From Parapedobacter luteus (GTDB lineage: Bacteria > Bacteroidota > Bacteroidia > Sphingobacteriales > Sphingobacteriaceae), in contig NZ_FUYS01000003.1 of the NCBI RefSeq assembly GCF_900168055.1, positions 496,001-560,000 on the forward strand: a stretch of 64,000 nucleotides of DNA. The letters run 5' to 3'. The translations under genes were made by a program, and so were the position numbers. Numbering within the stretch: the stretch's first letter is position 1; each line of letters starts with the position of its first letter. The notes under the pieces were generated by a model. That model did no database searches. It had not been told where the DNA came from and saw nothing but the letters and a program-made list of their open reading frames with translations. Positions 25,801 to 46,895 of the stretch are shown here, piece after piece.

Positions 25801-26121
25801 GGTTGATCCCACCGGCACCCGAAGTGAAAATTGCCCATCGTCATTCGTTTTCGTCGCCAGTGTACTGCTGCCTTTCACATGTACAGTAGCCTCGGGCAAA
25901 GGAGCGCCGGTCTCATCGCGCACCGTTCCCGAAACCGTTATGAGTTCTTGAAAAGCGGCGTCCGGGACCAGCGATACGGCACCCCGAACGCCCATCGTGC
26001 CTGAAAACATCAGGGCACACAGGAACGCAAAGACGCTGCAGACGGGTTTGGGTTTAGGTTTTAATTGGATATGCCTATGCACACCACTTGGCATCGTTTT
26101 GCCAAATAAAAAGTATTTCAT
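22849..26121 (-). CDS. SusC/RagA TonB-dependent transporter (first pair)
   Basis: A 1090-residue outer-membrane transporter. After an export signal (hydrophobic core about 28-48) comes a carboxypeptidase-D-like beta-sandwich (about 60-135, [22 protein letters not shown]), the TonB-box-like [13 protein letters not shown], the plug domain ([58 protein letters not shown]) and a 22-strand barrel ending in FTFGMNLGF. It has no STN signalling domain. It imports its ligand with TonB energy. The start codon lies inside a palindrome shared with the second pair, and a hairpin lies about 70 bases upstream. Confidence 0.95.
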   Translation of the reverse strand: [1090 protein letters not shown]

Positions 26122-26127
26122 ACTTTT
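26109..26127 (-). promoter_or_regulatory. start-codon palindrome of the first susC
   Basis: AAAAGTAT (26109-26116) and ATACTTTT (26120-26127) form an 8-bp perfect stem around TTC, and the start codon at 26119-26121 sits in its loop and arm. In the mRNA this could hide the initiation codon. The same 19 bases occur at the second susC. Confidence 0.6.
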
Positions 26128-26664
26128 ACCAAATTAAGGTTAGCTATTAGAGAATAATGACGTTTTATTAGTAGTGATACCTTGTCCATGCAGGAGTGGT
26201 GCGAACACTCCTGCTTTTTTATTGGTATCGGGTATTTCCGGTCATGCTCAAGGAGGGTAAAAATGATTCATATAAAACGGTTAAGCCTGTTGACGCCTAT
26301 ATTTAATTACATACATTTGGCAGCTAAAAATCGTTAACCTGCAAACACCGTATGTGTTTGATAGTCCAGCTATCAGCATACCAGACTACTACGGTCCCGT
26401 GCAAACCACCGATTCACTTATCTTTTCAAGACAGAAAAAGCGAGAATCCCCAAAAAACAACCAACACAGCACAACACCAGCAATGGAGAAATAAAAAAAT
26501 TAAAACTCACCTATCAATACACACAAACATAACCATATTCTTATATAATTCACAATAAAATAGTAAAAATATTTTATTTTTCATCAATAAAAAACAAAAC
26601 AAATAAGAAAAACACAATTTTAGTCAGTAAAACAAGACGAAAAATTCAACAAAACCCAAAAAAC
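26122..26664. other. intergenic leader region and AT-rich stretch upstream of the first susC
   Basis: There is no gene in these 543 bases. The part nearest susC (26122-26220) holds the AACC-TTAATT block and a hairpin with T-run. From about 26340 to 26660 the sequence is unusually rich in A and T, with runs of A on the plus strand, far from the surrounding composition. It separates the susC promoter from the end of the 2-hydroxyacid dehydrogenase gene. It could be a promoter/UP-like region or old foreign DNA. A 68-codon open frame inside it is not convincing. Confidence 0.6.
26190..26220. promoter_or_regulatory. leader hairpin upstream of the first susC
   Basis: GCAGGAGTG (26190-26198) pairs perfectly with CACTCCTGC (26206-26214) around a 7-base loop. 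On the plus strand six T follow (26215-26220), which makes it look like a terminator for RNA running away from susC, antisense to its leader. It is 69 bases upstream of the start codon and matches the equivalents at 37318 and 46869. Confidence 0.65.
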
Positions 26665-27624
26665 CTACACATTAACGACGTTTTTTGAATCCCCTTTCTG
26701 ATAATCCATCAAATTACACACAGCAACCTCCATCAGGCGGGTCCGCGCCTCTTTCGTAGCCCATGCAATATGCGGGGTAATCAAACAATGTCGTGCGCCA
26801 AACAACGGATTGTCCGGAGCCGGCGGCTCGGCGGACAACACGTCAAGGCCGGCACCGGCGATGCCGCCGCTGTTCAGCGCTTTCGCAAGATCTTCTTCCA
26901 CCACAAGTGGCCCGCGCGCCGTATTGATAAGAAATGCAGTTTCTTTCATCTTTTTCAGGCTACCGGCGTTTATCAGGCCCTTGGTTTGCGGCGTGAGCGG
27001 ACAGTGGAGACTCACTACATCAGCCTGTGCCAGCAATTCGTCCAAGCTTGCCCAACGGAAATTCCGTCGGTAAGACTGATCGGTTTGCGTACGGCTATAT
27101 CCAATGACGTCCATGCCGAATGCGGCGGCGGCGTCTGCCACGCGCTGGCCGATATCACCGAATCCGATGATGCCCAATGTCTTGCCCGAAAGCTCCATCA
27201 ATGGATAATCCCAGAAGCAGAAATCAGGTGATCGCGACCATTTGCCCGAAGCGACGGCGTCACTGTGTCGCTGTACATGGTGGCAAAGTTCCAATAGCAA
27301 TGCAAAAGTCAGCTGCACAACAGACGCCGTGCTGTATCCCGGCACATTGGTCACCACGATTCCCTTTTCCCTGGCGTAGTCAATATCCACGATATTGTAC
27401 CCGGTGGCCAGCACTCCGATGTATTTCAGGTCCGGCAGTTGTTCCAGTATTTCGGCATCCAATGGCACTTTATTCGTCAGTAAGGCTTCAGCGCCGTTTG
27501 CCCGTTCCACGATTTGGTCGGCGGTCGTTCGGTCATATACGGTCAGTTCACCCAAACTGCCCAGATCGTCCCAACTTAAGTCGCCGGGGTTCAGCGTATG
27601 TCCATCCAGTACAATGATCTTCAT
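26665..27624 (-). CDS. D-2-hydroxyacid dehydrogenase
   Basis: A 319-residue NAD(P)-dependent 2-hydroxyacid dehydrogenase (glycerate/hydroxypyruvate-reductase-like). The cofactor site is GIIGFGDIGQRVADAA, followed by YSRTQTDQ. Catalytic residues are Arg in NTARGPLVVEEDL, the acidic GLDVLSAEPPAPDNPL segment, and His in LITPHIAWAT. ATG 27624 starts at KIIVLDG, the usual N-terminus. The substrate could be glycerate, but this is not certain. It follows the amidohydrolase by 154 bases with a strong hairpin in between, so it is probably a separate unit inside the island. Confidence 0.88.
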   Translation of the reverse strand: MKIIVLDGHTLNPGDLSWDDLGSLGELTVYDRTTADQIVERANGAEALLTNKVPLDAEILEQLPDLKYIGVLATGYNIVDIDYAREKGIVVTNVPGYSTASVVQLTFALLLELCHHVQRHSDAVASGKWSRSPDFCFWDYPLMELSGKTLGIIGFGDIGQRVADAAAAFGMDVIGYSRTQTDQSYRRNFRWASLDELLAQADVVSLHCPLTPQTKGLINAGSLKKMKETAFLINTARGPLVVEEDLAKALNSGGIAGAGLDVLSAEPPAPDNPLFGARHCLITPHIAWATKEARTRLMEVAVCNLMDYQKGDSKNVVNV

Positions 27625-46810: not shown

Positions 46811-46821
46811 ACGTTTATGCA
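46806..46821 (-). promoter_or_regulatory. start-codon palindrome of the third susC
   Basis: TGCATA (46806-46811) pairs with TATGCA (46816-46821) around CGTT; the start codon is at 46808-46810. The sequence differs from the two other copies, but the arrangement is the same. Confidence 0.5.
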
Positions 46822-46868
46822 ATTGAGGTTAATTGAATAAGTTAGTTAAACGCGTTAGATTTTTGTAG

Positions 46869-46895
46869 CCATCAGTGAGCACGCGAGCACTCCCG
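46869..46895. promoter_or_regulatory. degenerate leader element upstream of the third susC
   Basis: The minus strand carries CGGGAGTGCTCGC followed by GTGCTCAC, matching the first arm and loop of the other two leader hairpins. The second arm has drifted (CACTGATG instead of CACTCCCG), leaving only a 4-bp core stem. It is 59 bases upstream of the start codon, the same distance as the others. Confidence 0.45.

Follow-up and report, generated by a model that had tools for sequence, protein, structure and literature searches.

In a 64,000-nucleotide (nt) stretch of the Parapedobacter luteus genome (contig NZ_FUYS01000003.1, positions 496,001 to 560,000; hereafter the window), three susC genes, which code for transporters on the minus strand, are preceded by similar leaders. 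We propose, with a probability of about 0.82, that each leader is a plus-strand gene for a predicted cis-antisense RNA of about 80-90 nt, in which the −7 box of the promoter lies on the susC start codon and the intrinsic terminator is a hairpin that the original prediction, made from the letters of the window, had read as part of a structured leader on the susC strand. The parts of this proposal that the sequence displays directly are the box, the terminator, the covariation of the hairpin, its strand, its recurrence in relatives, and its linkage to FecR and to susC genes that encode an STN domain. The three transporter genes are:

22849..26121, minus strand: susC1, TonB-dependent receptor, STN domain not found, ATG at 26121
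33845..37255, minus strand: susC2, with STN, plug and barrel, ATG at 37255
43601..46810, minus strand: susC3, STN domain not found, start put at ATG 46810 (the start of the open reading frame (ORF) caller is TTG 46822)

Predicted antisense RNA genes in the susC leaders

The elements predicted opposite the three start codons are given below, with E values from R2, a covariance model of the antisense strand for which all three copies were training members.

26099..26101, plus strand: TTG, candidate −33 element of the susC1 antisense promoter, 19 nt before the −7 box
26121..26128, plus strand: −7 box TACTTTTA with a single mismatch to TAnnTTTG, overlaps the start codon of susC1
26134..26222, plus strand: predicted antisense RNA to susC1, ends placed to ±5 nt from box and terminator, E 4.5e-10
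26190..26214, plus strand: hairpin forming the terminator of antisense RNA 1; TTTTTTATT follows (upstream-region row L057)
37233..37235, plus strand: TTG, candidate −33 element of the susC2 antisense promoter, 19 nt before the −7 box
37255..37262, plus strand: −7 box TACTTTTG, perfect, overlapping the susC2 start codon (row L017)
37268..37348, plus strand: predicted antisense RNA to susC2, ends predicted, E 1.5e-10
37318..37340, plus strand: hairpin forming the terminator of antisense RNA 2; TTCTTCTTTT follows
46810..46817, plus strand: −7 box TACGTTTA with a single mismatch to TAnnTTTG, overlaps the start codon of susC3; TTG absent at spacer 19
46823..46905, plus strand: predicted antisense RNA to susC3, the weakest copy, ends predicted, E 6.5e-7
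46871..46897, plus strand: hairpin of antisense RNA 3, imperfect; TTTGAGGTTT follows

TAnnTTTG is the −7 consensus of Bacteroidota promoters according to PMC7366714. The motif is common by chance (33 occurrences in the whole window, 35 expected), and therefore it is the position of the box that counts. Over 36 loci, with ends predicted from the sequence, the antisense RNA would be 72-115 nt long (median 90.5 nt).

The three blocks that the original prediction had placed ahead of each susC, namely a hairpin, an AACC-TTAATT block and a palindrome at the start codon, do occur in that order and within a few bases of where it had put them. The hairpin is as described there, with a 7-nt loop on a stem of 9 base pairs (bp) at 26190-26214 and of 8 bp at 37318-37340, and with a broken stem in the third copy at 46871-46897; the AACC..TTAATT block sits 10-21 nt upstream of the ATG in susC1, susC2 and susC3. 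The palindrome, claimed for every start codon, is AAAAGTATGAAATACTTTT in susC1 and susC2 only, whereas that of susC3 is different and weaker; it was not seen in the upstream sequences of paralogues, where TAnnTTTG recurs on the opposite strand. The leaders are indeed more alike than the coding regions, which had been called much less alike, but the contrast is modest (pairwise nucleotide identity of 53-65% vs 48-52%).

A model built from the three leaders (R1) and run over the 4.83 Mb genome recovered all three with E below 1e-27; at E ≤ 10 it gave only four further matches (E 0.7 to 5.1), all of which precede other susC genes. The similarity of the three leaders is thus not due to chance, and the element belongs to something wider than the three copies, not being special to these genes. 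Four sites in the genome carry the exact GGAGTG...CACTCC hairpin; two of these are not at a susC start and fall within listed ORFs.

Box and terminator among the susC genes of the genome

Upstream regions were surveyed for 56 susC genes from the TIGR04056 list, in which 56 of 148 first-look candidates received a score and susC3 does not appear. Genes with at least 340 nt ahead of the conserved core were counted as STN-type, which gave 17 STN-type genes and 39 others, and TAnnTTTG was sought within −18..+26 of the ATG. On the antisense strand the box was found at the start codon of 13/17 STN-type genes and 3/39 others (shuffles expect 0.88 and 1.88, respectively), and on the sense strand at 0/17 and 1/39. 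An antisense terminator was found in 10/17 STN-type genes and in two of the 39 others, susC1 being one of these two; sense terminators numbered 0/17 and 2/39. Fisher tests of STN-type against other genes gave 5e-7 for the antisense box and 3e-5 for the antisense terminator. Most STN-type upstream regions, when read on the antisense strand, resemble small RNA genes with the same order of parts: TAnnTTTG at the start codon, an AT-rich body, a G+C hairpin and a run of T's. FecR is encoded within 1.5 kb upstream of 16/17 STN-type genes and 1/39 others.

A perfect box lies near the start in 62 of 76 loci, 58 of the 76 having been selected with R2. In 34 of these 62 the box contains an ATG (CAAATGTA when read as sense); in 23 the ATG overlaps the end of the box (..TATG), and in 5 the arrangement is a different one. 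Some of the 34 loci have a second ATG four bases further on (CAAATGTATG), and therefore the inner ATG is not always the start in use. Neither the ATG nor the first codons are the constant feature; the box is, and this constancy explains the palindrome seen at the start codons and part of the shared blocks.

The AACC-TTAATT block was rejected as a marker of the element. AACCAATTA, with at most two mismatches and within 70 nt of the ATG (−70..−1), was found in 24/39 non-STN and 9/17 STN genes (4/39 and 2/17 in a control stretch); as it is common to both kinds, it is a general feature of susC leaders. A genome scan with a longer form of the block gave 193 matches vs 286 for the reversed control. 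Such AACCAATTA-like blocks are perhaps a translation signal of the sense strand.

Covariation, strand and alternative explanations

Twelve antisense sequences picked by eye were aligned as A3, which replaced an alignment (A2) with some misaligned rows; from a set of 17 sequences, A3 leaves out L012, L024, L053, L055 and L063, and it also omits L030 and L035, which lie outside those 17. In the hairpin 92% of the cells are paired, and 7 of the 10 pairs have changed on both sides. The covariation score is 0.461 vs 0.207 when shuffled, was matched in 0/500 shuffles, and is destroyed by shifting the pairing partner by 1-3 columns. Base pairing has been kept, as expected from the earlier suggestion of selection on the element.

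Covariation alone cannot give the strand, because a palindrome covaries on either strand. T-tracts and wobble pairs can, because what reads as G.U on one strand reads as A.C on its complement. A3 holds 8 G.U and 3 A.C when read as antisense. From 48 loci selected with R2, 6 were dropped for a weak stem; the remaining 42 stems, some of which are not the terminator, contain 28 G.U and 0 A.C, with a T-rich tail (at least 5 of 8) on the antisense side in 35/42 and on the sense side in 2/42. A larger set selected in this way (39 distinct stems, 59 loci) contains 27 G.U vs 1 A.C. R2 itself scores G.U above A.C, which biases these wobble counts, and the count was therefore repeated on loci chosen by protein family only, with strand-neutral scoring of stems. 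In the genome of P. luteus (19 loci, 12 distinct stems) there are 5 G.U and 0 A.C, with T-tails on the antisense side of 11 stems and the sense side of none. In STN loci of other genomes (78 loci, 23 distinct stems) there are 12 G.U and 1 A.C (p 0.003), with T-tails on the antisense side of 22/23 stems and the sense side of 0/23. Only 5 stems were found in 38 non-STN leaders, with one antisense and no sense T-tail. On promoter box, T-tracts and wobble pairs, the predicted RNA lies on the plus strand, antisense to susC, and not on the strand to which it had been assigned.

The 5' side of the hairpin arms stays purine-rich (GGAAGUG, GGAGUG, GGAAAUG), with loops such as UUGCAA and UUGGCG; such arms and loops are also found in several loci picked without R2. 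The 48 R2-selected hairpins resemble one another more closely than do 28 terminator-like stems from the window, although the selection with R2 biases this comparison.

The same evidence makes it improbable that the structure is a 5' leader of the susC mRNA itself, acting as an attenuator, a riboswitch-like element or a protein-bound hairpin. A sense transcript that starts upstream of the hairpin would also fold it, and the covariation would suit this explanation as well, but in loci picked without the model both T-tracts and wobble pairs point to the antisense strand. The missing start-codon palindrome of the paralogues also speaks against a sense leader, as does the comparison with Rfam, which gave 0 matches above the gathering threshold in the window (the best sub-threshold match at the three leaders was L20_leader on the plus strand, with 22.2 bits vs 58.7). 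In a search for a common sense promoter of the extracytoplasmic function (ECF) type upstream of the hairpin, the words found look like FecR coding sequence, and for this reason the sense promoter was not placed.

We regard as a little less probable still a trans action of the antisense RNAs on many susC mRNAs, with one RNA serving all three transporters in the manner of FopS. The three leaders do have blocks in common, and FopS RNAs bind near susC start codons according to PMC11697453. Against this, antisense bodies without the terminator formed non-cognate duplexes with a mean energy of −15.4 kcal/mol, vs −14.7 with shuffled leaders and −81 with their own leader; for the window trio, non-cognate values of −13.7 to −21.9 compare with cognate values of −72 to −76. 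Since non-cognate pairing is about as strong as that with shuffled leaders, the RNA-mediated common control of the three window genes that had been suggested is unlikely. The least probable explanation is a DNA inverted repeat ahead of susC that is bound by a regulator (a FecI-type sigma factor or a repressor): the purine-rich arms GGAAGTG, GGAGTG and GGAAATG recur across paralogues and orders, but a DNA site gives no reason for a one-strand preference of G/T over A/C (12 vs 1) or for T's on one side, and the arms vary freely where pairing stays.

Conservation in relatives and linkage to FecR and STN

The search of related genomes that had been suggested as a check did find the antisense element: at E ≤ 0.1, R2 matches 53/61 genomes of the order, that is, 52/60 relatives and P. 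luteus itself. The model includes about ten coding bases and is thus not wholly blind to susC. Among the listed matches, 49 R2 loci were examined (29 and 18 in other genomes, and 2 in P. luteus outside the training set), and in 48/49 an STN-containing SusC starts on the sense strand at the box, in L117 about 60 nt after it. The exception is L086, where R2 matches at 1501-1621, the position of the sense start codon reads ATA, and no susC was found downstream; it is possibly the remnant of a decayed locus.

FecR is encoded within 1.5 kb upstream in all 48 of these loci (46 in relatives, 2 in P. luteus), and upstream in 10/11 further loci (9 outside the family, 2 within). In the FecR-linked loci displayed, the hairpin sits after the stop of fecR and before the start of susC, in the intervening gap. 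Across the class, 15/295 genomes match R2 at E ≤ 0.01; because only 11 candidates were scored per genome, the misses say little. Ten class-wide matches outside the family include susC in 9 and STN in 8.

STN-domain loci were also taken irrespective of R2. Within the family, 8 loci with FecR contained the antisense box in 4, two of these in P. luteus, an antisense terminator in 3 and a sense terminator in 1. Outside the family, 6 STN loci without FecR contained no antisense box or terminator and one sense box. In eight named genomes, 30 loci (28 with FecR) gave 9 antisense and 0 sense boxes, and 13 antisense and 3 sense terminators. Examples of similar elements, patchy in occurrence, come from Dyadobacter, Flavobacterium and Marinilabilia. 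From these sequences, the predicted element is widespread yet far from universal.

In three Dyadobacter genomes, homologues of susC2 (72% identity) have no STN extension, no box and no T-tailed stem, which suggests that the predicted element travels with the signalling part rather than the transporter. Among all 14 such homologues scanned, a box was present in one from Chryseosolibacter, which has no terminator. It counts against such a link that susC1 (22849-26121) and susC3 (43601-46810) keep the element without a detectable STN, as if STN had been lost after the element was already in place.

Points against the antisense reading

Several findings weigh against the proposal. In the window, the −7 box is one base off in susC1 and susC3, the susC3 terminator is poor, STN is absent from two of the three susC, and susC2 is the sole one of the 17 STN-type genes without FecR upstream. 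In the genome, a perfect box is absent from 4/17 STN-type genes and the terminator is below the threshold used in 7/17. Over the 62 perfect boxes of the 76 loci, the −33 element is weak, with TTG at spacer 19 in 7/62. Among the loci taken without the model, the box is present in only 2/6 STN/FecR loci of the family outside P. luteus, and 36 FecR loci outside the family yielded 12 antisense boxes (0 sense) and 13 antisense terminators (4 sense). The element was found in 0/4 Chryseosolibacter and 0/3 Segatella loci. Finally, some pairs of this kind in Bacteroides thetaiotaomicron correlate positively (PMC10994844), and therefore repression is no rule.

Comparison with known systems

Association with susC genes under the control of an ECF sigma/anti-sigma pair is a defining trait of the DonS family of Bacteroides fragilis. 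According to PMC7366714, DonS represents cis-antisense RNAs of 78-128 nt that are divergent to susC homologues and lower their expression, and 52% of the cis-antisense candidates of B. thetaiotaomicron have a link to the housekeeping promoter motif. PMC10994844 reports 32 antisense RNAs associated with polysaccharide utilization loci (PULs) in that species, in pairs both anti-correlated and positively correlated; the original prediction, which knew of no named element, had missed this class. For B. fragilis, 15 such RNAs are cited in PMC9723704, which also describes antisense RNAs of Flavobacterium psychrophilum, susC not being singled out in the account seen. ECF sigma/anti-sigma control is stated for host-glycan PULs in general in PMC11697453.

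The window copies and 48/49 R2 loci resemble DonS in lying opposite the 5' end of susC, in having their own predicted Bacteroidota housekeeping-type promoter (TAnnTTTG perfect for susC2 and one base off for susC1 and susC3), in a predicted length of 72-115 nt, which compares with the 78-128 nt described, and in the FecR linkage of the host loci (16/17 STN-type genes of the genome and 48/48 R2 loci, but in the window susC3 only). They differ in occurring in another family as well as in Dyadobacter, Flavobacterium and Marinilabilia, and in being known from sequence alone. By position, promoter, length and linkage, we file the predicted window elements with the DonS kind. No report of such RNAs in Sphingobacteriaceae was found in a search that rarely named the genera of the family and whose coverage took in few subscription papers.

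FopS and GibS are small RNAs of B. thetaiotaomicron studied with RbpB, and FopS RNAs act in trans via a shared seed (PMC11697453). The predicted RNAs are similar in that they would act at susC start codons, but each is fully complementary to its own susC and showed no cross-pairing with other susC leaders. The host loci also resemble FecI-FecR-TonB receptor signalling, most of them carrying FecR and STN. To our knowledge, the definition of that system does not include an antisense gene at the start codon of the receptor.

Proposed mechanism

We infer that the antisense RNA is transcribed and represses susC. A housekeeping-type promoter with its −7 box over the susC start codon would transcribe away from susC across the upstream gap and stop at the intrinsic terminator formed by the hairpin. 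The constitutive RNA would pair over the translation start of its own susC, the region of ribosome entry, and hold expression low; alternatively or in addition, antisense transcription may collide with or oppose read-through from fecR. A signal through FecI/FecR would raise sense transcription until FecI-driven transcription wins. In FecR-linked loci, the terminator would keep antisense transcription out of fecR and so spare the anti-sigma gene, because it sits in the gap between fecR and susC.

A more speculative extension, which we hold to be rather unlikely, is that FecI/FecR-STN SusC signalling has an ancient third component, a start-codon antisense RNA, that is standard throughout Bacteroidota (the family of the window, Dyadobacter, Flavobacterium and Marinilabilia, with DonS as the Bacteroides example). 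The −7 box occupied by RNA polymerase and the ATG occupied by the ribosome would then exclude each other and make a self-contained on/off switch at each locus, and the purine-rich arms (GGAAGUG, GGAAAUG) might serve an extra role such as binding of an RNA chaperone.

Neighbouring genes

The other genes around the three susC genes are listed here.

46969..48126, minus strand: FecR-type anti-sigma factor, directly upstream of susC3
48245..48784, minus strand: FecI-type ECF sigma factor
40500-41981, 29412-30896 and 30905-32407: Peptidase_S10 proteins
27779-29422: amidohydrolase
18673-21198: DUF4953/DUF5117 metalloprotease-like protein

FecR adjoins only susC3 in the window, and the FecI/FecR pair at 46969-48784 is a possible common control of the three susC. 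Between 18673 and 46810, three susC/susD sets are accompanied by peptidase-like genes, and the locus looks like one for the uptake of peptides rather than polysaccharides. TATGTTTG lies at 26524-26531 on the minus strand, about 400 nt upstream of susC1; it is a possible sense housekeeping promoter of that gene, such boxes being common by chance.

Significance

The case illustrates how a 'structured leader' may be assigned to the wrong strand and how T-tracts together with wobble pairs settle the matter. A strand-specific covariance model and exact sites are now available. They bear on a possible gating by antisense RNAs of the feedback in TonB-dependent signalling, for which the B. thetaiotaomicron pairs point both ways (PMC10994844). 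With the predicted elements, a class of regulatory RNAs known from work on gut Bacteroides would reach a wider part of the phylum, and they would tie it, by sequence alone, to one architecture, that of FecR beside an STN-type susC.

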